From: a virus
DNA length: 64,000 nt
Reading direction: 5' to 3' (one strand)
Virus record (IMG/VR): IMGVR_UViG_3300028827_000129
Span: 1-64,000 of that record
Shown here: one piece after another, positions 5,093-59,233 of the stretch
Layout: every line of letters starts with the position of its first letter
Position numbering within the stretch: position 1 is the first letter of the stretch
The notes under the pieces: generated by a model
What the model was told of the DNA's origin: nothing
The model's input: the letters and a program-made list of their open reading frames with translations, nothing else
Database searches by the model: none
Program-made: the position numbers and the translations under genes

Positions 5093-7510
5093 TTAAATTA
5101 GCTTTCTGAAAATATATTCTTTATTATTTAAATTTATTATAATTTCTTTATTCGTATAAGTTCCCATAAAATCAAAATCAGGTCGTGAATTTATAAAATT
5201 GAAACCAGGCTGTAAATTTATACATTTAACTTTTTCTTTTTGTATTTTCTTAACATTTAATTTAGGTTCTAAAATAGCCTTTACATTTAATCTTGGTTCT
5301 GACTTTAACTTATTTAACGTACCTCGAAATATATAAATTTTGCCTTCTTCAAATTGATTTGGATTTATGTTATATGCCGATGCCTCTAAGAAGGAAGATT
5401 CACCTGATATAAAAAACTTCATTATAATCTTGCCGGACCTTGTCTTAATTGTTTCTACGTTTTCTAAACTTCCTATGATATCAACTTTTTGAAAATTTCT
5501 TAATTTATTTACATCTTCACATCTTAACCCTCCTGTATAAAATGAAACTGCATGTTTATATGGATAAAATCCATATGTTTGTCTTTCCATAAAAGTCAAT
5601 TCTATTTCATTATATCTAGTTTCAGGCTCAATCATATAATAATCTAACAATCTTTCTTGTTTTAATTTGTTAATTAAATCGTGTTTAAAAATTTCTTCCT
5701 CTTCCATTGAACCAAAACGTTGACTAGCAGCTTCTTTATTTACACGAGCCATAATTCTTATCATTTTGTCTCTATTTTTCTTTTTAATCGTATATAAATG
5801 ATCAACATTAGCAAATAGTTTTGATCTATCTGATTCTATTTCATCAAAAGCTCCAGCTAGTATTAATGATTTGGTTACAGATGTATCAACAATTGTTGTA
5901 TTAATCCTCTTAACAAAGTCTATTAAGTTCTTAAATGGTCGAGCTTTTATAATTTCTTTTGCAGATTTTTTACTCAATCCTTTAATTGAAGCCAATCCAA
6001 AACGTATTCCATCAGACTCTATTTTAAAGCTACTTGTAGAATGATTAATAGAAGGTGGGTATAACTTAAGCCCATTTTTTTGTGCGTCGCAACAATAAAT
6101 CATTAATTTAACAGAATCGTTAAAGACTGATGACATTAATGCTGTCATATATTCTTTAAGAAAATGTGTTTTAAGATATGCAGTTTGATAAGTAATAAAG
6201 CTATAAGCTACAGCATGTGATTTATTGAACCCATATTCAGCAAAAGCGGCCATTTGGTCAAAAATCTTATTTGCTATATTTTTATCAATATTATTTTTTA
6301 TGCAACCATCAACAAATTTAACACGCTCTGACTCTACTTTATTAACAAGTTTTTTACCTAGAATTTTTCTTAATCCATCAGCTTCAGCAAGTGAATATCC
6401 TGCAAGTTCTCTTGCAATAGCCATAACTTGTTCTTGAAAGATTAGAATGCCATGTGTACTAGCTAATATTTTTTCTAGTTTAGGATGTAGGAGATTGATT
6501 GTAGAGCCATTAAATTTATTTTTAACATAAAGGTCACACATTCCTAATTGGATTGGTCCTGGGCGAAATAAGGCGTTTATATCAGCTATATCACTAATGT
6601 TTTGTGGAACAACTTGCTTAACAAGTTCTGTAATTGCCGACCCTTCTAACTGAAATATTCCTACTGTGTTACCTAAAGCTAGTTGTTTATATGTCTCTTT
6701 ATCATCGAAGGGAATATTATCAATATCCAATTCGATATTTTGAGTTTCTTTTATAAGTTGTTTTGTTTTATTGATAACTGTTAAAGTTTTAAGCCCTAGA
6801 ATATCAAATTTAACAATTCCTAGATCTTCTAGAGCACGCATATCATACTGCGTAACTTTTTCTTTTTTAATAAGTCCTATAGGCGTATAGTCGTATAATG
6901 AAGTATCAGCTATAGCAACACCAGCGGCATGTTGTCCAACATGCCGCATAAGCCCTTCTAATTTTAGCGCATATTGAATAATTTTAGAATTCTTAATTTT
7001 ATTAAGCCTTGGTTCTAGCTTTAGAGCTTCCTCTAAGCTTAATTGCTGACCAGCTACACCGTCAGGAATTAGTTTGGCAATTTTATCTACTTCCTTTAGG
7101 TCTATTTTTAATACTCTACCAATATCTCTTATGGCAGTTTTGGCAAACATACTGCCATAAGTACCAATTCTAGCAACTTTATGTTCTCCATATTTTTCAA
7201 TAAGATATTGAAAAATTTCTTCTCTTCTTTCTTTACAAAAATCCATGTCAATATCTGGCAAAGAGCCAGTTTTGACATTAACTAATCCTTTAGGTTCTTC
7301 GTCAGTTACGCCAAGACAATAAGCAATAGAAGAGTTGCATTTATTAGGCTTGCCTTGAATATTTTTATCTAATAAGTCTTTAAAATAATCTATTATCCAT
7401 GGATTGGTTTTAATTAAGTTGATTTCAAAATTTAACCAATCTTTTGGAACAGTTCTTTTTAGTTCTAATGACTTTTCTTTAATTAGTGAAATAAATTTTT
7501 CTTTAGTCAT
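5093..7510 (-). CDS. dnaE: DNA polymerase III alpha (DnaE type), C-terminal half
   Basis: It carries the polymerase core after the split: LPDIDMDFC with the first catalytic Asp pair, GTYGSMFAKTAIRDIGRVL, the long fingers region (FRPGPIQLGM, HGILIFQEQVM), FNKSHAVAYSFITYQTAYLK, and a C-terminal OB-like region. It pairs with the separate upstream gene that supplies the PHP and early palm; together they make about 1197 aa, close to a normal DnaE. Its first 80 residues hold a degenerate second copy of the palm segment just before the catalytic motif (NSSIAYCLGVTDEEP). An alternative in-frame ATG lies at 7528, inside the upstream gene. The start at 7510 leaves one base after the upstream TAA, so translation is probably coupled. 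It polymerises phage DNA. Confidence 0.9.
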   Translation of the reverse strand: MTKEKFISLIKEKSLELKRTVPKDWLNFEINLIKTNPWIIDYFKDLLDKNIQGKPNKCNSSIAYCLGVTDEEPKGLVNVKTGSLPDIDMDFCKERREEIFQYLIEKYGEHKVARIGTYGSMFAKTAIRDIGRVLKIDLKEVDKIAKLIPDGVAGQQLSLEEALKLEPRLNKIKNSKIIQYALKLEGLMRHVGQHAAGVAIADTSLYDYTPIGLIKKEKVTQYDMRALEDLGIVKFDILGLKTLTVINKTKQLIKETQNIELDIDNIPFDDKETYKQLALGNTVGIFQLEGSAITELVKQVVPQNISDIADINALFRPGPIQLGMCDLYVKNKFNGSTINLLHPKLEKILASTHGILIFQEQVMAIARELAGYSLAEADGLRKILGKKLVNKVESERVKFVDGCIKNNIDKNIANKIFDQMAAFAEYGFNKSHAVAYSFITYQTAYLKTHFLKEYMTALMSSVFNDSVKLMIYCCDAQKNGLKLYPPSINHSTSSFKIESDGIRFGLASIKGLSKKSAKEIIKARPFKNLIDFVKRINTTIVDTSVTKSLILAGAFDEIESDRSKLFANVDHLYTIKKKNRDKMIRIMARVNKEAASQRFGSMEEEEIFKHDLINKLKQERLLDYYMIEPETRYNEIELTFMERQTYGFYPYKHAVSFYTGGLRCEDVNKLRNFQKVDIIGSLENVETIKTRSGKIIMKFFISGESSFLEASAYNINPNQFEEGKIYIFRGTLNKLKSEPRLNVKAILEPKLNVKKIQKEKVKCINLQPGFNFINSRPDFDFMGTYTNKEIIINLNNKEYIFRKLI

Positions 7511-7511
7511 A

Positions 7512-8690
7512 TTATTTCTCAAAATCATAAAGTGGGACTGGCACTCTGCCTGGATTTAAAAACCTTTCAAAATATAATCCATATTCTAAAGGATCAACTT
7601 TAGTTATATCTAAACAATATGTTACAAGACTTCCTGCAGAACTACCTCTACCTGCTCCAGTTTCAATTCCTTTATTTTTAGCAGTTTGAATTATATCTTT
7701 AATAATTAAAAAGTAGCTCTCAAAATCCATAAGATCTATTTGTTTTAATTCATATTCTAACCTATCAATATACTTTTTTGATGGTTTAGGAAATTTCTTT
7801 TTGAAACCTGCATATACAGCTCTTTTAAATTCTTCTTTATCATTCTCAATTTTCGGGATTTTTGGAATGCCCAAAGTTAATGTTATATCAATTTGATTAG
7901 CAATTTTAATTGTATTTGTTAAGACTTCTGGCATATGTCCCCATCTTTCCCACATTGTTTCTGGTGATTTAACATAAGTCTCTTCTGTTGTGAATTGTAA
8001 GTTGCCTCCTGTGCCGATTGATAAGAGGATTCTATGAGCCTCTGAATCGTTGGCATCAAGATAATGGCAGTCTGAAGTGATGATAACAGGAATTTTAGCA
8101 TCTTTTGAAAGTTTTAATATCTCCTTATTGAGTTTAACCTGGTCTTCTAGATCAGGTAAATCTTGTATTTCAAGATAAAAATTATTATCAAAAATTTCTT
8201 GGTAATATAAAGCTAATTTTAAAGCTTTTTCATATAAGCCATTTGATATTAATTTTGCTATCTTTCCTTTAAAACATGCACTTGTAGCAATAAGATTATC
8301 TCCATATTTTTCTAATAATTCATGATCAACCCTTGGCACATAATAAAATCCTTCCTCATAAGCTAATGAGGAAAGTTTTACTAGATTTTTATATCCTTGG
8401 TTATTTTTAGCTAATAAAATCATATGATACGCATAATCATATCCTTCTATTTTTTCTTTTCTATACCTTTCAAAAGGTGATACATATACTTCACATCCAA
8501 TAATTGGCTTAACATTATGTTTTTTCATATCAACATAGAAATTATATGCCCTACGCATATTGCCATGATCAGTAATAGCACAAGCTTCCATATTGTATTT
8601 AGCACACTTTTCAGCCAAATTGGATGTTTTTATCATTCCGTCTAAATTACTGCCATCTGTATGAAGATGTAAATGAACGTATTGTTTCAT
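7512..8690 (-). CDS. dnaE: DNA polymerase III alpha (DnaE type), N-terminal half with PHP domain
   Basis: Residues 1-200 are a PHP domain (YVHLHLHTDGS, CAITDHGNM, IIGCEVYVSP, TSDCHYLD). Residues 280-392 run into the palm with GAGRGSSAGSLVTYC and YFERFLNPGR. The protein then stops after VPVPLYDFEK, exactly where an intact DnaE continues with PDIDxDF. The catalytic Asp residues are in the next gene. No intein motifs are seen at either edge, so assembly must be non-covalent or the split is a genuine gene fission. No clear Shine-Dalgarno precedes the ATG, which lies 2 bases after the thermonuclease stop. Confidence 0.9.
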   Translation of the reverse strand: MKQYVHLHLHTDGSNLDGMIKTSNLAEKCAKYNMEACAITDHGNMRRAYNFYVDMKKHNVKPIIGCEVYVSPFERYRKEKIEGYDYAYHMILLAKNNQGYKNLVKLSSLAYEEGFYYVPRVDHELLEKYGDNLIATSACFKGKIAKLISNGLYEKALKLALYYQEIFDNNFYLEIQDLPDLEDQVKLNKEILKLSKDAKIPVIITSDCHYLDANDSEAHRILLSIGTGGNLQFTTEETYVKSPETMWERWGHMPEVLTNTIKIANQIDITLTLGIPKIPKIENDKEEFKRAVYAGFKKKFPKPSKKYIDRLEYELKQIDLMDFESYFLIIKDIIQTAKNKGIETGAGRGSSAGSLVTYCLDITKVDPLEYGLYFERFLNPGRVPVPLYDFEK

Positions 8691-22035: not shown

Positions 22036-22066
22036 ATTACTCCTTTCTTCTTTTATATTCTCATTA

Positions 22067-22109
22067 AAAAAACCACATATAAGATTTATTTACTTATATG
22101 TGGTTTTTT
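22067..22109. terminator. Bidirectional rho-independent terminator
   Basis: A perfect 17-bp stem (AAAAAACCACATATAAG and complement) with a 9-base loop starts with A-run and ends with T-run on both strands. Minus-strand transcripts arriving from the ATP-grasp gene would stop here. It lies just upstream of C26 hydrolase 1 and splits the island into two transcription units. Confidence 0.85.
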
Positions 22110-22114
22110 ATGAA

Positions 22115-22168
22115 GTCAATGCCGTAATGTTCATAAAATGTTAATTTTATGAACATGTAGGCATTGAC
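22115..22168. promoter_or_regulatory. 54-base perfect dyad element
   Basis: There are two nested arms: outer 9 bp (GTCAATGCC / GGCATTGAC) and inner 13 bp (ATGTTCATAAAAT / complement), separated by GTA on both sides, with a 4-base GTTA centre. No U-run follows. The symmetry suits an operator for a dimeric or tetrameric protein, a recombinase site, or a protected RNA hairpin. It lies between the ATP-grasp gene and C26 hydrolase 1, 6 bases from the terminator. The rest of the gap (22169-22252) holds a smaller imperfect hairpin (TGCCA..TGGCA) and no gene. Confidence 0.7.
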
Positions 22169-22252
22169 TTGTATCTAACCTTCTTTTCTGTGGATATTAT
22201 TGTATGCCATGAAGCGATTCACTTCTGGCAATTGTCCATATAAAATAAAGTA

Positions 22253-23023
22253 TTAACTATTTGCTTTTACATATTCAGTAAGATGACGTACAAAGCGATC
22301 TGCTGTTGTCTCTTTATCAGGATTATCTATAAAATGACTCATACTTGGTGCAGTATTTACTTCTAATACGTAACATTGATCAGGGTCATCAACAGGAACT
22401 AAAATATCTACTGCACCAAATAGAAAACCAAGTTCTTCAATTACATCTTTTGCTAGTTGTCTTATTTTCTTCTTTTTAACAGTGCCGTCATTTTCGACGG
22501 CAAAAAATCTATATCCATTAGCATAATTCTTTATTGGGTTAATTGGGTTAGTTTCTTCTGTAGGCTTTTTTTCTGTAAATTTAATTGACTTTCCATTAAA
22601 AACAAAAACTCGAAATTCTCGATTGTCTTCAATAAACTTTGTAGAGTAGGCATAACCTTCATCGTATAGCTTTTCTAATTTTTGTTTAGTAAAGCAGATT
22701 TTAAAATTATTGCCTCCCTGATGAGCTCCTTTTCTAACAACTCTTGGGAAATCGTCAGGTTGCCAATCTCTTTCTTCGCCTTTTATATGTACATCAATCA
22801 TTTTATCTCTTATCTTCTTGATATCGTCAAGTTTTTCTCTTTTAATTCCCCAAGGGACTTCAAAGTAGTTTTCAACTTCAATAATCTTTTTTACAGTATC
22901 ATTTTTTAGTTCTTCTTCCTTTAGTGCAATTGCTTTAAATCCTTCAATATTATTGATTTTTTCTGCTAAAAGATTTGCAGTTACATTAGTTTTCTTAGTA
23001 CGCTTTAACAAAACCTTATACAT
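22253..23023 (-). CDS. ATP-grasp ligase (RimK-like)
   Basis: It is 256 aa long. The C-terminal ATP-grasp lobe has LGFLFGAVDILVPVDDP, YVLEVNTAPSM (metal-binding Glu and Asn) and an earlier FIEDNREFRVFVFNGK strand. ATP-grasp enzymes form amide or peptide bonds through an acylphosphate. It overlaps the upstream class-II amidotransferase by 8 bases, so the two are probably produced together. A role in adding an amino acid or amine to a peptide or small molecule is inferred from family and neighbours. Confidence 0.88.
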   Translation of the reverse strand: MYKVLLKRTKKTNVTANLLAEKINNIEGFKAIALKEEELKNDTVKKIIEVENYFEVPWGIKREKLDDIKKIRDKMIDVHIKGEERDWQPDDFPRVVRKGAHQGGNNFKICFTKQKLEKLYDEGYAYSTKFIEDNREFRVFVFNGKSIKFTEKKPTEETNPINPIKNYANGYRFFAVENDGTVKKKKIRQLAKDVIEELGFLFGAVDILVPVDDPDQCYVLEVNTAPSMSHFIDNPDKETTADRFVRHLTEYVKANS

Positions 23024-24086
23024 TTAATTCTTCTCCTTTCAAACTATCTGGAATTTCTAGTTTAACTAAGCAATGACCACAAATAGCTTCTGATAACATT
23101 GCATATGTTAATGTTTCGTGGCATTGTGTACATTCAAAGTCACTTTCTTTAACATAACATGTTTGACATATATGGATATCTTCTATATCTACACATTGTG
23201 CATGACTTTTACAATGGTCACATTGGCTATGACGCCAAATTTTATTTGATGAAGAATGTGATGTACTATACGTCTTTTTACTATAGCTAGTTCCTCCGTA
23301 AGAATAAGTCTTATTACTACTGTAATAATTACTGTTGCTGTTATAATATGTTGTGTATGGGAAATGAGCTTCTTTTTCTAATCCATCTTTGCCTAAGATA
23401 ATTACTTTATCATTTGATACTTCTATAAAATGAAAATCATCATTATTAACAAACTTAAAACCTCTAAATTTTATTGAACAGATATGTTCTAAAAATGGCT
23501 TTTCTGAAGCAAAAAATACAATATCATTTTTCATATCCAGTAATAAATATAATGTTTTATTTCGCCTAAATAAATATAATTTATCAGGTTCTTTAACATT
23601 TAAGGCAGCAAAGGTTGCATCTCCTTTCATACTGCTAGCGTTATCTATAAATTTGTCAAATCCTAATTTATCTAATAGCATAGGTAAAATTATTGTATCA
23701 CTTTGAATATTATTTGGTACTTTTACATTATATTGTTTTTCTAATTCTTTAACATTATTGATTTTTCCGTTATGCACAACAGCCCAATTATTAAAAATCA
23801 TAGGATGGTTATTATCATTATTTTCAGCTTTTGCTCCAGTACTTGGATTTCTTGTATGTAAAATTGCTACAGAAGGCAAATTCTTTGTAAAATTTTCCCA
23901 GATTTCTGTTTTCATAAGTTCATCAGAACTTTTAGGTTCTTTGAAAAATAACATTTTATCTTCATGAATAAATGCAGTTCCTGAAGCTTCTTTTCCTCTT
24001 TGTCCAGATAAAGAAAACATTATTTCAAGATCTACAACTTTCGGCCTTTTATCACCAAAACATTTATAACCTAATATTCCACACAT
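23016..24086 (-). CDS. Class-II glutamine amidotransferase with C-terminal zinc ribbons, copy 1
   Basis: The Ntn-hydrolase domain (residues 1-230) starts MCGILGY, so Cys2 would be the N-terminal nucleophile. It also has SLSGQRGKEASG, ILHTRNPSTG, VVHNGKINN and QSDTIILPML. A Ser/Tyr/Asn-rich linker (residues 258-295) leads to zinc-ribbon modules (CDHCKSHAQC, ICQTCY, CTQCH, CGHCL). No synthetase domain is fused, unlike GlmS, PurF or AsnB. It would release ammonia from glutamine for a partner enzyme. A diverged second copy lies at 26143-27168. Confidence 0.88.
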   Translation of the reverse strand: MCGILGYKCFGDKRPKVVDLEIMFSLSGQRGKEASGTAFIHEDKMLFFKEPKSSDELMKTEIWENFTKNLPSVAILHTRNPSTGAKAENNDNNHPMIFNNWAVVHNGKINNVKELEKQYNVKVPNNIQSDTIILPMLLDKLGFDKFIDNASSMKGDATFAALNVKEPDKLYLFRRNKTLYLLLDMKNDIVFFASEKPFLEHICSIKFRGFKFVNNDDFHFIEVSNDKVIILGKDGLEKEAHFPYTTYYNSNSNYYSSNKTYSYGGTSYSKKTYSTSHSSSNKIWRHSQCDHCKSHAQCVDIEDIHICQTCYVKESDFECTQCHETLTYAMLSEAICGHCLVKLEIPDSLKGEELNV

Positions 24087-26142: not shown

Positions 26143-27168
26143 TTAATGAACTAAGTCTTTATTACAATTTTCACATTTTTTATTTTTATTTAAAGGATTA
26201 TAACAAATTTTACAGTAATCTATTTGGTGGAAAGCATCAAAGCATTCTTTGCAAACAATTTGATTTTGTAGAAAATATTTTTTTCCATAAAAAACATCTA
26301 GACAAGAGTCGCAAATATTACCTTTTCCATTTTTAATTCTTTTTTCATACCAACTTTCATAATTCTCATGATTATGCAAATAAGAACTATTACTGTATTT
26401 ACCCTTCTTGACATCAACATCATAAAAAGAAATTGTGTCTCTATATAGATAATCGAACGTCATTTGCTGTTGTAATCCATTTTCATTAATGATTAAACAA
26501 GTGTTTTCACTAACCTCTTGAATATCTTTTGATGGTATAACAAAATTTCTCCATAAAGATTTTCCATTTAGATGGTATAAATATTTCTTAAGCGAAGCAA
26601 AATAAAATATATCATTGATTCTATCATAAAGATAGAATAATGGCCTTTCTTTACGATGTATAATTAACGAATAAGGATTTTCTTTATGATACATTGCAAA
26701 TGTTACAGCACCATTTAGTTGCTTTAAATACGACATTCCTTTTTCAACACCATAATGATCAAATAACCAAGCTATAGAAGCACTATCAACTTTTAGTTGC
26801 AAATTCATCCCATGCCATTCTCTAACAGCTTCATTGTTCATGAGAGTACCATTATGAACTAAAATAGTTTTCTCTAGTTTGATCGGATGATTATTTGTAT
26901 TATCTGATGAACTTCCTACACTACTTTTTCTGGCATGAAGAATCATTGTTTTTGGCAACTCTTCAAGTTTTTTCCAACGTTTTGTTTTTACAAAATCTGA
27001 TGCTTTTAATGGAGCTTTATAAACTATAAAATCTTTTTTATGTTCTGAATAATAACCAAATCCAGAGGCATCTTCTCCTCGTTCTTGTAAATATATAAAT
27101 AACTTCGTCAATAGCTGTTTGTCTGGACGCTTTTCTCCAAAACAATAATAACCTGCAATTCCGCACAT
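26143..27168 (-). CDS. Class-II glutamine amidotransferase with C-terminal zinc ribbons, copy 2
   Basis: It is 341 aa and paralogous to 23016-24086. It starts MCGIAGYYCFGEKRP, with QERGEDASGFGYY, ILHARKSSVGSS, LVHNGTLMN and KVDSASIAWLF. The C-terminus has zinc-binding pairs (CDSCLD, CKECF, CKICY, CENCN). Retaining Cys2 and the HNG motif implies both copies are active glutaminases. It overlaps the upstream gene by one base. Confidence 0.88.
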   Translation of the reverse strand: MCGIAGYYCFGEKRPDKQLLTKLFIYLQERGEDASGFGYYSEHKKDFIVYKAPLKASDFVKTKRWKKLEELPKTMILHARKSSVGSSSDNTNNHPIKLEKTILVHNGTLMNNEAVREWHGMNLQLKVDSASIAWLFDHYGVEKGMSYLKQLNGAVTFAMYHKENPYSLIIHRKERPLFYLYDRINDIFYFASLKKYLYHLNGKSLWRNFVIPSKDIQEVSENTCLIINENGLQQQMTFDYLYRDTISFYDVDVKKGKYSNSSYLHNHENYESWYEKRIKNGKGNICDSCLDVFYGKKYFLQNQIVCKECFDAFHQIDYCKICYNPLNKNKKCENCNKDLVH

Positions 27169-27647
27169 TATTCACATACCGCCTTTACTAATTTTTCTAT
27201 TTTATCAAAATGTTTTTTACGTGTATCTAAATCAAACGCAATAGCATGATTACGTTTTACAACAATAATATTTATAGAATCGCCAAAAACGGAATATATT
27301 TTTTTCTTTATGTGTGTATTGTAGCCAATTGCTATAGTTCTATCTAATCTATTTTTTAATCCATAAACATGGATTCTCCCTTTAAAATTGTATTTTTTAA
27401 ATAGGTCTGCAATTTCTTTTGCTTTTTGGTGCTTTGCATTATATGTAACTCTAGTATTTATATCAACCATTGCCGACTTTAATTTTTTGTCAGGTTTTAT
27501 TGGCTTAGCTATATTAGTCAAACGTTTATATGCTTTTTCATAAGAGCTATCTGTAAGCATATCTTTTATATTATCAAAAATAATAGTTTTTCTTTTATTA
27601 AAGTTTGTTTCAAATTCATCTGGGTTTATAGAAAATTTTGTATTCAT
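27168..27647 (-). CDS. Hypothetical protein downstream of reverse transcriptase, 159 aa
   Basis: No family was recognised. It is basic (many Lys), with an alpha/beta C-terminal half (RIHVYGLKNRLDRTIAIGYN, INIIVVKRNHAIAFDLD). Its ATG lies 2 bases from the reverse transcriptase stop, and the ribosome site is inside the RT gene, so the two are coupled. If the RT is a defence or retron-like system, this is the first candidate for its partner protein. Confidence 0.5.
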   Translation of the reverse strand: MNTKFSINPDEFETNFNKRKTIIFDNIKDMLTDSSYEKAYKRLTNIAKPIKPDKKLKSAMVDINTRVTYNAKHQKAKEIADLFKKYNFKGRIHVYGLKNRLDRTIAIGYNTHIKKKIYSVFGDSINIIVVKRNHAIAFDLDTRKKHFDKIEKLVKAVCE

Positions 27648-27648
27648 T

Positions 27649-29184
27649 TTAACCCTCTTTATATTTTTCTAACATTTTTTCAACTAATTTACTTTGTTCA
27701 TTATTGATAAGTTTAACAAAAGACATAAAACCATCTACATTGTATGTATCAGGATTGGATTTAATAAATCCTCTCCAAGCATGCATTGTTTTTCTTGGTA
27801 TCCTTAATGTTCCATCTTCATGAACACTGATACCATTAACATTTACATATGGGTAAGTCATAATTTTAAATTTATGTTTATTAATTGGTATATCTAGATA
27901 ATTAACAAAGAAACTTGTTAATTGTTTTTTGAGTTGTAATTTTTCTTCTTTATTAAGTTTCTTAGATAATGATATTGTAATATCATCAACATATCTTGTA
28001 TATGCAACCATTTTTGCTTTTGTTGCTCTGTATATAAGTTTGCGTAAAAAATTTATATACTTTTGTTCTATTCTAGACATGACAATATTAAAAATATATG
28101 TTGACGTAGGACTGCCAATGGGTAAAATAAACCCATTATTATTTGGTAATATTGTGTAATCAATAATTTTAGACGATATTAAACTAGTAAATCTTGAATG
28201 GATTAAACGTTTATAAATACGATTTCTATTCCCCATTAAAATATTATGAAAAGCATTTTTTATATCAACTTTTACCCAAGTTATTGGAGCATTCTTTTTA
28301 CTGAAATGATATTTGATAGCATCAACCATATTTCTGTTTTTAACTCCTCCATAGCTATATTTGCCAGGAGAAATATTTTTATAAAGTATTTTTAAGATAT
28401 CACGTTGTAAATTTTTAATATTTTCATTTGGCTTATGAATAAATCTAATACCTCCATTGCTTTTTTTGATAAAATATGTTTTATAAAGTTTATTTATTGC
28501 AACTCCATCAACATTGTTATCTTTAAATGACTGTGATAAGATAATAGTATTATCCAAATCTTTTTTAAAATTATGTTTACCACTCTTAACATATGTATAT
28601 ACTGAAATAAATTGATCTAGTAATGCTTTTATGACATCCCAAGATTGATCTATCTTTTTATTTTTCTTAAGATATTTTAATTTCTGTTTATGAACATTAA
28701 AATCTATTTCTTTCCCATTAATATAAATAGTTATGGCTAAAAGAGACATGAATTGATATCCTAATGTATTAAAAAAATTCATATTTATTACTTCATTATC
28801 ATTTTTTTGTATAAATTGTATTATATTTTCGTAAGACTCTCCATTAGTTTTTTCAATAACATCTTTTAATTGCAAATCTTTATACTTATCAGGAATAGTT
28901 CCATTTTTTATATGTGTGGCAATTTCATAAAACAGATTTGCTTGTTTTATATCAGAATCATTAAACCAATCCATAAATGCTTTTTTATATATATTTAAAA
29001 CTTGTATTTCCATTTTAGACAAAGAAATTTCTGGTTGTTTTTTTTCTGTATCTGGCCATTTTAAGATATAGTAAAACAATGTAATTGGACTGCAAGTATA
29101 GAACCTTTTGTCATTATAAAGTTTTACTGCCATGTTTCTTAAATTTAAATAATTTATCATACTACTATATTTTTTCTTTTGCAT
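27649..29184 (-). CDS. Reverse transcriptase, retron/Abi-like
   Basis: It is 511 aa long. The RT domain occupies the second half: IRFIHKPNENIKNLQRDI (RT1), YGGVKNRNMVDAIKYH (RT2), WVKVDIKNAFHNI (motif A with catalytic Asp), LPIGSPTSTYIFN (motif B), YTRYVDDITIS (motif C, YVDD), INKHKFKIM (D) and YVNVNGISVHEDGTLRIPRK (retron-like motif E/7 region). The first 220 residues match no family I recognise. The start at 29184 is chosen because GGAGG lies 5 bases upstream; an ATG at 29211 forms the hairpin arm. No endonuclease or maturase domain is present. It is embedded in the amidoligase island, with a hairpin-rich leader at 29185-29318. Confidence 0.88.
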   Translation of the reverse strand: MQKKKYSSMINYLNLRNMAVKLYNDKRFYTCSPITLFYYILKWPDTEKKQPEISLSKMEIQVLNIYKKAFMDWFNDSDIKQANLFYEIATHIKNGTIPDKYKDLQLKDVIEKTNGESYENIIQFIQKNDNEVINMNFFNTLGYQFMSLLAITIYINGKEIDFNVHKQKLKYLKKNKKIDQSWDVIKALLDQFISVYTYVKSGKHNFKKDLDNTIILSQSFKDNNVDGVAINKLYKTYFIKKSNGGIRFIHKPNENIKNLQRDILKILYKNISPGKYSYGGVKNRNMVDAIKYHFSKKNAPITWVKVDIKNAFHNILMGNRNRIYKRLIHSRFTSLISSKIIDYTILPNNNGFILPIGSPTSTYIFNIVMSRIEQKYINFLRKLIYRATKAKMVAYTRYVDDITISLSKKLNKEEKLQLKKQLTSFFVNYLDIPINKHKFKIMTYPYVNVNGISVHEDGTLRIPRKTMHAWRGFIKSNPDTYNVDGFMSFVKLINNEQSKLVEKMLEKYKEG

Positions 29185-29318
29185 TAATTCCTCCATTTTC
29201 GAACCTTTCATATTTTGAATTTATGAAAGGTTCAAAATTTAAAGCGTACTCTTTATTTGAGTACTAAATAAAGAAGAAAGCACTTAAGCGAAAACACTTA
29301 GGCTTATAAAAACTTTTT
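29185..29318 (-). ncRNA. Hairpin-rich leader of the reverse transcriptase (candidate msr/msd-like RNA)
   Basis: This 134-base gene-free interval lies between the FmdB-like stop and the RT start. It has an 11-bp stem (arms 29201-29211 and 29223-29233), an 8-bp stem (29251-29258 with 29266-29273), and a repeated CACTTA 14 bases apart at 29281 and 29295. The first stem ends 16 bases before the RT start codon. Retron template RNAs lie at this position, but no a1/a2 pair or conserved guanosine could be assigned, and 134 bases is short. A translational control structure is the alternative. Confidence 0.4.
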
Positions 29319-29513
29319 TTATTTACTATAGCCGTTTGAACTCCATCCTACTCCACCTGGTTTTAAAATAAATGAAGTATTGACAATTATTTTTGTTGCT
29401 ATATTATTGCATTTTGGACATTTTGCCCAATTTCTTTCATCATAAATAGAACGTTGTAGTTCAAATTGATGTTTACATTTTGGATTATCACATGCAAAAA
29501 CATAAATTGGCAT
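29319..29513 (-). CDS. FmdB-family zinc ribbon protein
   Basis: It is 64 aa with the typical MPIYVFACDNPKCKHQFE start, then CPKCNNIATKII and FILKPGGVGWSSNGY. The two CxxC-type pairs bind zinc. FmdB-like proteins are small putative regulators. The ATG at 29513 follows GGAGG; the earlier ATG overlaps that ribosome site. Confidence 0.8.
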   Translation of the reverse strand: MPIYVFACDNPKCKHQFELQRSIYDERNWAKCPKCNNIATKIIVNTSFILKPGGVGWSSNGYSK

Positions 29514-29514
29514 T

Positions 29515-29826
29515 TTAAATTCCTCCATTATGTTTTTCTTTTCGCTTTATAGGATATGTGTTTAAAATATCATTTAAAACTTGTAATAAAGTTTTCTTGT
29601 CCTTTTTTAACTCTTCTGGCCATACATAAAATGCAGTATTTCCTTTGTCTTTTATGCCTTTTACTTTAAATCGGATTCTTTTTGTTGAATATAAAGGAAT
29701 AATTTCTTCTATAACAACTTCTCTCTTTTTTGCAAATGCTACTTTTGGATCATAATAAAATGTTTTATATAATAATTTATTTTCTGCAAAAGCTACTTGT
29801 TCATAAAATAATTTATTATTTTCCAT
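29515..29826 (-). CDS. Hypothetical protein, 103 aa
   Basis: No family was recognised. It is a mixed beta protein with basic ends (FYEQVAFAENKLLYKTFYYD, IRFKVKGIKDKGN). The start at 29826 lies just after the C26 hydrolase 2 stop; a longer frame from 29934 would overlap that gene by 83 bases and is less likely. The ribosome site is weak. Confidence 0.5.
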   Translation of the reverse strand: MENNKLFYEQVAFAENKLLYKTFYYDPKVAFAKKREVVIEEIIPLYSTKRIRFKVKGIKDKGNTAFYVWPEELKKDKKTLLQVLNDILNTYPIKRKEKHNGGI

Positions 29827-30649: not shown

Positions 30650-31273
30650 TCATTCTTCAGATAATTCTTCTATATCATAAAACACTATTTCTTGATCTAT
30701 AGTCAATGTAGCAAGTGTTGCATGACAGCTGGTACATTCTATAAGAAATGTACCTTCAGGTACTCTGATAATATCAATCGTTTCTGTTTCTTCTATATTC
30801 TCTCCACAATTTGGACACTTTTTATATGTATATCTTGCTTTAAAACGTTTTATATTATTTCTTACAATACGAGCAAAAAATTCCTCAACATCAACAAACA
30901 TTTTAGTATTTAACAGACAAAATCTGTTTAAACTATTTTTGGATTTAAATAAGTTTTTGTTAACAGCCCAATTTTTTCTCTTTATTTTTCCATAAAATGA
31001 TATAATTATTTCTCCAATAACAGAATCGCATTCCATGCATGACAATGCTAAACTAGCATTTAAAAAATGACCTTTGTTATTTTGGGCAGGTATTGTTTCT
31101 TCAATTTCAATTAGAATAGCATTGAAATCTTCAAAGTCTTTTTTACAATGCTCACAAAATCTTGGGATAATAATACTATTATCTCCTAGTAATTCTATAA
31201 GAAAATCATACCATATATCATCCAATTCATCAAGTACAACTGATTCAATACTAAGGCAAGTCTCTATGCTCAT
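30650..31273 (-). CDS. Zinc-ribbon hypothetical protein, 207 aa
   Basis: No family was recognised. CxxC pairs occur at CEHCKKDF, CMECDS, CPNCGEN and CTSCHA, arranged as two split zinc ribbons around a basic helical middle. The start overlaps the upstream stop (ATGA). It is another cysteine-rich member of the amidoligase island. Confidence 0.55.
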   Translation of the reverse strand: MSIETCLSIESVVLDELDDIWYDFLIELLGDNSIIIPRFCEHCKKDFEDFNAILIEIEETIPAQNNKGHFLNASLALSCMECDSVIGEIIISFYGKIKRKNWAVNKNLFKSKNSLNRFCLLNTKMFVDVEEFFARIVRNNIKRFKARYTYKKCPNCGENIEETETIDIIRVPEGTFLIECTSCHATLATLTIDQEIVFYDIEELSEE

Positions 31274-56063: not shown

Positions 56064-56905
56064 ATACATTTACTCACTTTACGACAAATTTCAACCCAGC
56101 GGTAGTAGTTCTCCTTCGTCATTGGGAGGATAGGAAAGAACTCTTTGAACACAACTGTGCGCTCGCCAATATTATTGACGCGCTTTAGGGTTGAAGTGTT
56201 CCAGAAGTTCAGTGCTTCTTCCACAGATCTGTCCTCGATAAAGTGGGTTATTGGCAGCTGGCGTTTTGCAATAATATACTGCTGTGAGGTAAGGCAAAGG
56301 AATGCTAGTGGTGGGGAATTGTGAGGTGAAACAATAACCTGCGGAGAGTAACCGAAGTAATAGGTACCATTCACAGCCCTATTTGGGGCATAGATGTTGT
56401 AGTGCGGCTGGAGTTTTGCGCCACAAGCAGTTGTTGGCTTGAAAAATTCTTCCAGGCTGCTATAGAGGACAAACTTAACCGTCAGGCGGTGTTGGTAACG
56501 CCTTGCCAACTCAGTCAGGGCCATGTCACGAATGGCCAGAGCAGCCTCCTTTGACCGAGTGGCACACCACTTTAAGTATGGACTTTCATTGCGGCAGCAT
56601 TTCATTAGACTTGGTGACCTCTTTGGCGATTTCCAAATGGGAATGAGACAATACATACATTTTGTGTTTGAACAAGACTGCTCCCCGTGGAGCGCTACCT
56701 GTTTGAGACCATACTCGCATATTGCACAGTTCGCAGCAACATTGTGCCAATAGTTGAAACCAGGCCAGCGTAGCTTAGCTTTCCAAAGAGAACTGTCATG
56801 GCTCGGGTTATCTGCGAGCCAGTCCCACTGTGCGGCTGTAACAGCGAGGGCCACCTCCGGTTGACCTAAATGCATCTTAGGTTTACAACATTTAGGTCTT
56901 TGCAT
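56060..56905 (-). CDS. Cys-rich phage paralogue family, member 1, 281 aa
   Basis: Shared layout with the next gene: KPKMHLGQPEVALAVTAAQW, WLADN, LRWPGFNYW, CAICEYG, CMYCLIPIW, then WCATRSKEAALAIRDMALTE, IYAPNRAVNGTYYFGY, FLCLTSQQYIIAK and FKEFFPILPM. The Cys pairs probably bind zinc. GC is near 50%, far above most of the window. It overlaps member 2 by 14 bases. Confidence 0.65.
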   Translation of the reverse strand: MQRPKCCKPKMHLGQPEVALAVTAAQWDWLADNPSHDSSLWKAKLRWPGFNYWHNVAANCAICEYGLKQVALHGEQSCSNTKCMYCLIPIWKSPKRSPSLMKCCRNESPYLKWCATRSKEAALAIRDMALTELARRYQHRLTVKFVLYSSLEEFFKPTTACGAKLQPHYNIYAPNRAVNGTYYFGYSPQVIVSPHNSPPLAFLCLTSQQYIIAKRQLPITHFIEDRSVEEALNFWNTSTLKRVNNIGERTVVFKEFFPILPMTKENYYRWVEICRKVSKCI

Positions 56906-57710
56906 ATAGCGTCTCCTTGACTTTATTAATAAGCTTAATCAGCGCTGTGCAGTTGTTGTTTGTCAACGGCATGATTGGCAGAAATTCCTTGAAGATGAGC
57001 TCTTGCTCGTTAGCTTTGCGCTTGCGCCACTCGGCAGACTCCCAGAAGCTGAGCGCAGACGCGACATGCGAGTTAATTAAGAAGTGCGTGCAAGACAGCA
57101 CGCTACGTGCGATAGTATACTGCTGCGAGGTAAGGCACAGCCACGTAGAGGGATCGTGTAGCCGCCAACCGTAGATTGCTTGAACGCCATACCCGAAGTA
57201 GTAGGTACCATCGACTGCTCGATTGGGTGCATAGATCTCATAACTAGACTGGAGCATACGCCCCGCGTTTGTTATAGGCCTGTAAAGGCCTTCCTTAGCG
57301 GTGTAGCAAAACGACTTCAAAGCGAGGCGCTTCCAATGGTGCCGTACTAGCTCAGTGAGAGCCATGTCACGGATAGCTAGCGCAGCCTCTTTAGAGCGTG
57401 TAGTACACCACCGCTTATAGATGCTCTGCCCAACGAGGCACTTGTGGGTAGGCCATGCGCGCCAAGCTGGAATTAAACAATAGTAGCATTTTTGTCGACC
57501 TCCTTGGAGCTTGCCGTATTCGCAAAGTATGCAGGCTGAACGTATACCATAGCCCCAATAATTGAAGCCGGGCCAGCGTAACTTGACTTCTCTAGGTTCG
57601 GCGTTGTTTGAGTTGCTTGCGAGCCAGTTCCAGTGAGCAGCCATAGCAGCAAGAGCTACTTCTGGTTGGCTTAAATTCATTTTTGGTTTGCGACATTTAG
57701 GTTTTTTCAT
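56892..57710 (-). CDS. Cys-rich phage paralogue family, member 2, 272 aa
   Basis: Close paralogue of member 1 (KPKMNLSQPEVALAAMAAHW, LRWPGFNYWGYG, CILCEYG, CYYCLIPAW, TRSKEAALAIRDMALTELV, IYAPNRAVDGTYYFGY, FKEFLPIMPL). The start at 57710 follows GGAGG by 6 bases; a longer frame lacks a ribosome site. Tandem duplication is clear. Confidence 0.65.
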   Translation of the reverse strand: MKKPKCRKPKMNLSQPEVALAAMAAHWNWLASNSNNAEPREVKLRWPGFNYWGYGIRSACILCEYGKLQGGRQKCYYCLIPAWRAWPTHKCLVGQSIYKRWCTTRSKEAALAIRDMALTELVRHHWKRLALKSFCYTAKEGLYRPITNAGRMLQSSYEIYAPNRAVDGTYYFGYGVQAIYGWRLHDPSTWLCLTSQQYTIARSVLSCTHFLINSHVASALSFWESAEWRKRKANEQELIFKEFLPIMPLTNNNCTALIKLINKVKETLYAKT

Positions 57711-58777: not shown

Positions 58778-58845
58778 CTTGGTCCTCCACATAGCGATTA
58801 TAAAACAAAGTTAACGCTTTTTGGTAATCAGTTTCATAATAAATT

Positions 58846-58980
58846 TCAGGATCTTTTTTTATGCGGTAACAATTCATTCATGAGGAATTGTCCCATACGA
58901 ACTTTATTTCTTATTTTGTTATCATAAAACCATTTCCGCATAACCGCATAATAGATATTAGCGTTTACCTTGTAAGACAT
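58846..58980 (-). CDS. Small helical protein, 44 aa
   Basis: Frame MSYKVNANIYYAVMRKWFYD continues with RMGQFLMNELL. It is a shortened paralogue of the next gene. GGAG lies 8 bases upstream of the ATG at 58980. Confidence 0.55.
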   Translation of the reverse strand: MSYKVNANIYYAVMRKWFYDNKIRNKVRMGQFLMNELLPHKKRS

Positions 58981-58999
58981 ATTTTTCTCCTTGTTAAGT

Positions 59000-59233
59000 T
59001 CACCATATATCTTCACAAGGTATGTTATCGTCAAAATCATCTACGTAACGAATAAAAAACAACATTGCTGCAATATCATCATCAGTTTCGTCATATATTT
59101 CTGAGTCTGTTTTACTTTGTAACAGTTGATCTATAAGATATTGTCCTAAACGAAACTGTTTACGAAGATTCGAACTATCGTACCAAATACGTGCTGTTTC
59201 GTAAAAGTTATGATGTTTTACTTTTTCAGCCAT
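59000..59233 (-). CDS. Small helical protein, 77 aa
   Basis: It shares NFYETARIWYDSSNLRKQFR and LGQYLIDQLLQ with the 44-aa neighbour, and has an acidic tail. AAAGGAG precedes the ATG. Function unknown. Confidence 0.55.
   Translation of the reverse strand: MAEKVKHHNFYETARIWYDSSNLRKQFRLGQYLIDQLLQSKTDSEIYDETDDDIAAMLFFIRYVDDFDDNIPCEDIW

Follow-up and report, generated by a model that had tools for sequence, protein, structure and literature searches.

Retrons and the retron-like RTs of phages

Reverse transcriptases (RTs) are familiar both from host defence and as part of the cargo of prophages. Retron-type RTs are common in phages, and the carriage of bacterial retrons by phages has precedent. 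Among the validated retron RTs, the region X motif NAxxH is found in 14 of 16 and the region Y motif VTG in 14 of 16; Ec48 departs from both, its region Y having H in place of T, and Mx65, like Ec48, lacks the N of NAxxH (PMC6868368). Ec48 and the P2-like phage retrons (e.g. pro147) have a two-TM membrane effector by the RT, and the type XIII retron RTs of Flavobacteriaceae (e.g. L221, L229 and L241) carry an N-terminal extension of 140–190 aa before the core.

The Staphylococcus jumbo phages and Listeria phage LPJP1 are large phages encoding a retron-like RT of 454–517 aa, with an N-terminal extension of 165–210 aa and a coupled or overlapping downstream gene. RTs are conserved in the staphylococcal jumbo phages, and their role there is unconfirmed (PMC10638138). 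We found that the 1.1–1.28 kb upstream of the RTs of these phages, in which the longest ATG-started frame is at most 59 aa, is a tandem array of 4 to 6 units per phage, with a spacing of mostly ~170–210 nt (Table 1). Each unit consists of an invariant short hairpin, which is CATTATATGAATACGTATAATG in the staphylococcal phages and a different one, in four copies, in LPJP1, and, after it, a longer hairpin whose sequence varies and whose inner z-score is mostly −3 to −7. Of the 215 pairs predicted in the staphylococcal set, 53 have undergone a two-sided compensatory change at least once, and these include pairs of the short hairpin in some units. By analogy, a short constant hairpin and a long variable one next to a retron-like RT look like a repeated msr plus msd. 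A literature search with terms for such arrays returned no description of them, though one may exist elsewhere. In the upstream sequence of ~35 other RTs, among them the phage RT that is the subject of this analysis, nothing comparable was seen.

An intact RT gene with a retron-like core

The RT lies in a window of 64,000 nt, the whole stretch of DNA analysed here, which belongs to a virus record of 170,083 bp. A 54-bp terminal repeat in the record suggests a complete genome. The phage encodes a portal, a capsid, a terminase, its own DNA polymerase and a ribonucleotide reductase, and neither tyrosine nor serine integrase families were matched in it. The nearest matches to the phage DNA polymerase came from phage contigs of human faecal origin, none of those listed exceeding ~39% identity; matches that distant leave the phage itself without a close sequenced relative here. 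In the window, a DNA polymerase III alpha-like protein (5093-8690) is split in two overlapping ORFs (7512-8690 and 5093-7528), which match the N- and C-terminal parts of one PHROG, 405.

Table 1 Features of the RT locus in the window, and RNA arrays upstream of phage RTs
Feature	Position	Strand	Basis or remark
RT gene	27652..29211 (stop codon 27649-27651)	minus	single uninterrupted ORF, 520 aa
RT core, fingers-palm-thumb, retron-like	27652..28497	minus	pLDDT ~85-97; Z 23.1 to Ec86
N-terminal extension, ~228 aa, predicted all-helical	28497..29184	minus	AlphaFold pLDDT ~35-65
Region X, NMVDAIKYH, retron NAxxH with N to D	28306..28332	minus	
Catalytic motif, YTRYVDD	27982..28002	minus	residues 404-410
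Region Y, VNGISV, retron VTG with T to N	27823..27840	minus	residues 458-463
RT ribosome-binding site, GGAGG	29190..29194	minus	sequence
Leader stem-loop 1	29278..29305	minus	fold
Leader stem-loop 2, GTACTC-7 nt-GAGTAC	29246..29264	minus	weak terminator/operator-like palindrome
Leader stem-loop 3, 16-nt arms (94% complementary), 9-nt loop	29197..29237	minus	fold
Downstream gene, 159 aa, no family	27168..27647	minus	1-nt gap to RT stop
Upstream gene, 69-aa FmdB-like zinc ribbon	29319..29528	minus	Pfam Zn_ribbon_8 8.9e-10
Most structured intergenic RNA, rank 1 of 30	22036..22252	minus (RT strand)	z -10.5 and -11.6
Staphylococcus jumbo-phage arrays	L189 3142-4418, L190 3163-4361, L191 3217-4316, L192 3175-4415		
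Staphylococcus jumbo-phage arrays, further	L295 1220-2316, L296 1221-2316, L297 1142-2418		
Listeria phage LPJP1 array	L007 4302-5508		directly upstream of retron-like RT

The RT gene proved genuine and intact. The first-ATG start of the ORF (29211) falls within a leader hairpin. The ATG at 29184-29182 is preceded by a Shine–Dalgarno (SD) sequence, GGAGG (29194-29190), at a spacing of 5 nt, and the RT is therefore more likely a protein of 511 aa than of 520 aa; judged from the sequence, this ATG is probably the true start. The intact catalytic motifs and the retron-like VNGISV..IPRK region described in an earlier, sequence-only reading were both borne out: the Pfam RVT_1 match (E 2.4e-18) spans RT residues 248-452 around the YVDD box, residues 363-370 are LPIGSPTS, and RIPRK occupies residues 470-474 behind VNGISV. 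The GC content at codon position 3 (GC3) is 0.161 in the RT gene and 0.13-0.21 in its neighbours, which indicates a settled phage gene. The gene could be read as a decaying or neutral passenger without present function, being an orphan on a long branch with no partner; the 520 open codons, the full set of intact catalytic motifs in an AT-rich genome, the good SD and the phage-like codon composition make this quite improbable.

RT residues ~240-520 form a complete reverse transcriptase, the core beginning near residue 239. An AlphaFold model built with 32 phage and prophage RTs was confident across residues 231-520 (pLDDT ~85-97), and a structure search with the model of the full RT effectively covered residues ~213-520. 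The closest solved structure was that of the retron Ec86 (VIA-align Z 23.1, 3.7 Å, 291 residues), followed by Ec78, Ec83 and Eco8 (Z 21-22), with Ec67 also among the matches. The best Z of the non-retron structures was 20.0 for group II intron RTs, 18.8 for a DGR RT, 17.9 for DRT2 and 14.4 for AbiA; rows less than 1 Z apart were treated as tied, and the group II RTs therefore stand just slightly behind the lower-ranking retrons. In sequence searches, the retron models ranked above other RT models: the best 25 PADLOC models listed were all RT models, almost all of retron types (top RT_II-A, 3.8e-28), the NCBIfam RT matches were three retron models (St85 RT, E 2.2e-28), and retron RTs were the only matches at E < 0.01 when solved structures were searched with phmmer. 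The PHROG match was to family 2825, 'polymerase' (3.5e-32). In a careful tree of 89 rows, which held no AbiA, AbiK, Abi-P2 or UG reference sequences, the RT was split from the group II RTs at 100/100 support, and it grouped with neither group II intron nor DGR RTs. These results indicate that the RT core, by its sequence and modelled fold, belongs to the retron lineage.

Hallmarks of DGRs and group II introns were absent. No TR/VR pair with adenine-biased differences is present in the whole 170-kb genome, the one related repeat match in the TR/VR search being a paralogous amidotransferase pair, and motif 4 of the RT, LPIGSPTST, lacks the SQ found in IPIGSLTSQ of BPP-1. The group II intron reading was likewise rejected: an Rfam scan of the window at gathering thresholds returned tRNAs only and no intron RNA, no maturase domain was found with Pfam, and the tree separated the RT from this group.

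Abi and several DRT proteins are in general built as an RT joined to a large helical extension, and in Abi RTs the helical parts come after the RT. The large helical extension of the window RT and the alignment of its model to DRT2 and DRT9 structures (Z 16.9-17.9) are consistent with an Abi- or DRT-like antiviral RT, performing template-independent or ncRNA-templated DNA synthesis and using the helical domain for oligomerisation or priming. The extension is N-terminal, however, and the protein ends at the thumb, at residue 520, with no C-terminal helical domain; retron models and structures are clearly higher-ranked. An Abi-like RT, which the sequence-only reading had offered as one possibility, is less likely, since nothing follows the thumb in the window RT and its structure match to AbiA is far poorer than that to Ec86 (14.4 vs 23.1). 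We consider an Abi- or DRT-like enzyme unlikely overall.

Distance from described retrons

With the bacterial retrons (Ec86/Eco1, Ec83, Ec78, Ec48 and the II-A/St85-like retrons), the window RT has core sequence and fold in common, and it likewise has regions X and Y correctly placed and a structured leader upstream. Unlike them, it carries DAxxH, VNG and a 228-aa helical N-terminal extension, and its locus is without a recognised msr-msd, effector or type. In region X (DAIKYH) the alanine and histidine are retained and N is replaced by D. Validated retrons deviate likewise, and DAxxH and VNG therefore neither prove nor rule out retron membership. The RT scored 99 bits against the St85 model, whose curated cut-off of 235 it did not reach, 73 bits against the TIR retron model (cut-off 600) and 54.5 against Ec67 (cut-off 450), and topped out at 97 bits on the PADLOC models. 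Its identity to the phage and prophage retron RTs aligned with it is low (~22-28%). The substitution pattern in regions X and Y resembles that of the Ec48/P2-like retrons; no two-TM protein was found next to the RT. The type XIII RTs reach ~590 bits on RT_XIII, whereas the window RT scored 75.8, aligned over the core alone, and their N-terminal extensions show no similarity to that of the window RT. No known retron effector was found among the RT neighbours with Pfam or PADLOC, which gave only weak short matches.

A quick tree set the RT beside the Ec48/P2-phage clade with a support of 86, which the careful tree did not reproduce; there, the RT stood on a branch 2.26 long with no firmly supported neighbour. 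No close relatives emerged when viral and bacterial contigs were scanned with the single sequence or phages were searched by tblastn, profile-guided scans yielded relatives at the level of the core only (~22-37% identity), and the RT was not matched in 41 records related through the phage DNA polymerase. As judged from its sequence, then, the RT is highly diverged from every described retron type and is not a clean retron. Of the earlier idea of a phage-borne retron, the retron-like RT in a phage stands, whereas the designation as a retron does not follow from deviating motifs and a locus in which no msr-msd was recognised and no effector found.

A kinship with RTs of candidate phyla (Uhrbacteria/Saccharimonadia) was considered and rejected as unproven. 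These RTs grouped with the window RT at 94/95 in the careful tree; the branches are long, and attraction is therefore suspected. When the candidate-phylum group and two viral RTs were used as a profile, the window RT was not among the best 24. The genes concerned lie at 4608-5855 of L205 and 4785-5806 of L207 (Saccharimonadia, Uhrbacteria), and relatives of the candidate-phylum RTs occur in 16 further genomes among 379 sampled from the phylum of the Uhrbacteria genome (E ≤ 1e-12).

Leader, N-terminal extension, neighbours and possible roles

Three stem-loops occupy the 136 nt ahead of the start codon, and the third sits immediately upstream of the RT ribosome-binding site. Compared with shuffled sequences, 29150-29340 folded with a z-score of −5.0. 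The strictly intergenic part, 29212-29318, gave −2.2, which puts it at around ninth place among 30 intergenic regions; perfect hairpins whose stems reach 10 bp or more number 52 across the 170-kb phage. Of the two clean hairpins and a repeat announced for the leader, the hairpins are present and number three, their weight was overstated in view of this ranking, and the repeat was not recovered, no 11-mer being repeated in 29150-29345. Rfam E-value matches to microRNA families at hairpins were dismissed as chance matches to perfect stems.

A compact true retron would have this leader (29183-29318) as its msr-msd, with the RT making msDNA and the 159-aa protein or the N-terminal domain serving as effector. 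The position of the leader directly upstream of a retron-like RT, its three stem-loops with the z-score of −5.0, and the coupled downstream gene are what such a retron would offer. Set against this, no Rfam msr match was found at the leader, nor a convincing long-range a1/a2 pair, the best arms being AT-rich and 71-76% complementary. The leader is also unexceptional within the phage, its large hairpin, lying right against the SD, may be just a translational or mRNA-stability structure, and the 159-aa protein matches no effector family. We regard a compact retron as doubtful.

The 220-residue N-terminal extension noted earlier as unfamiliar remains so, with the core starting near residue 239. 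Modelled alone, the N-terminal part had a mean pLDDT of 41. No credible Pfam match to the extension was found, nor a tblastn match across 50,697 phage records or a homologous stretch among the related RT loci collected. The 159-aa downstream protein had no credible family match in Pfam, PADLOC, PHROG or NCBIfam and no phage tblastn match. No relative shares the N-terminal domain or the downstream gene, and neither is therefore demonstrably conserved with the RT. The downstream gene starts 1 nt past the RT stop, so that translational coupling, asserted outright in the sequence-only reading, is plausible from the operon position and geometry of the two genes.

The RT surroundings are a known type of phage cluster, with a phiEco32-like COOH-NH2 ligase, an ATP-grasp protein, two peptidase C26 proteins and two related amidotransferase proteins (23016-24086 and 26143-27168). 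The latter are paralogous class-II amidotransferases with cysteine-rich C-terminal tails, and the 5' ends of their genes are ~65% alike in DNA. The RT lies between genes of this amidoligase island on the same strand, which is what a regulator of the island would show and is the sole support for that proposal. Nearly all window genes are on the RT's strand, however, and neither a DNA-binding domain nor conserved co-occurrence was found; amidotransferase relatives are present in hundreds of phages, for which no RT neighbour was noted, the flanks being unread. A regulatory role is extremely unlikely, and the amidoligase setting of the RT looks incidental. PADLOC matches of neighbouring proteins to LmuA (E 0.001) and PtuB (E 2e-4) were short and weak and were not taken as effectors; the PtuB (Septu/retron HNH) match, E 1.7e-4, falls on a zinc-ribbon-like protein at 30650-31273. 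Elsewhere in the window, 56241-57710 and 58783-59233 contain tandem duplications with 60-70% DNA identity.

The presence of an intact, highly diverged retron-lineage RT in a 170-kb phage in which no integrase was detected raises the question of what reverse transcription gives a phage. We propose, at a probability of roughly 0.4, that this is a divergent retron-lineage RT which copies a structured phage RNA and acts in phage conflict together with its N-terminal domain, the 159-aa protein or both. The enzyme, whose catalytic core is intact by its motifs and which carries its own, predicted all-helical N-terminal domain, may use its C-terminal part (region Y and thumb) to recognise a structured transcript of the phage and copy it into a short cDNA. 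In concert with the N-terminal domain, the coupled protein of 159 aa or both, it could then exclude rival phages or interfere with RT-based defence of the host.

The RTs of the Staphylococcus jumbo phages and LPJP1 resemble the window RT in the size of the host phage, in the N-terminal extension and in the coupled downstream gene. Neither their N-terminal parts nor their downstream genes show a recognisable relationship to those of the window, their RT motif (MGSPLS, LGNPVS) differs, and the window RT has no array. It is conceivable, though rather unlikely, that the window RT represents an unrecognised class of phage RT parallel to these, with a lineage-specific N-terminal domain, which copies structured phage RNAs (in trans or from arrays) and serves the infecting phage and not the host. 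Together, the window RT and the jumbo-phage RTs make the benefit of reverse transcription for a phage a testable question. Should such RTs use phage RNAs as templates, RT-based weapons or regulators in lytic phages would constitute a novel type of system; should they not, the window RT stays a divergent relative of retrons.

The proposed template need not be the leader. The most structured intergenic RNA of the phage (z ~−11) sits between the ATP-grasp and peptidase C26 genes, ~5.4 kb downstream of the RT; it begins with a stem-loop at the 5' end, continues with a two-part hairpin of 24 bp and ends in a textbook terminator. This order of a small stem-loop, a long hairpin and a terminator is similar to an msr-msd layout, and the arrays of two-hairpin units upstream of the jumbo-phage RTs lend the idea some precedent; on these grounds it is, speculatively, the best alternative candidate for a template in trans. 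It has no sequence link to the RT, which lies 5.4 kb away, the terminator alone accounts for the final hairpin, and the element may be a terminator region only. Action of the RT in trans on this or another structured phage RNA, such as genome 81326-82007, is very unlikely. The latter (L090 17326-18007) is a non-coding stretch of 682 nt in which perfect hairpins (of 11, 23, 15 and 16 bp, among others) follow one another, their loops being of the TTTA/TTAA type and repeated ATAAAACATAA linkers joining them, and is possibly an origin or a terminator cluster.
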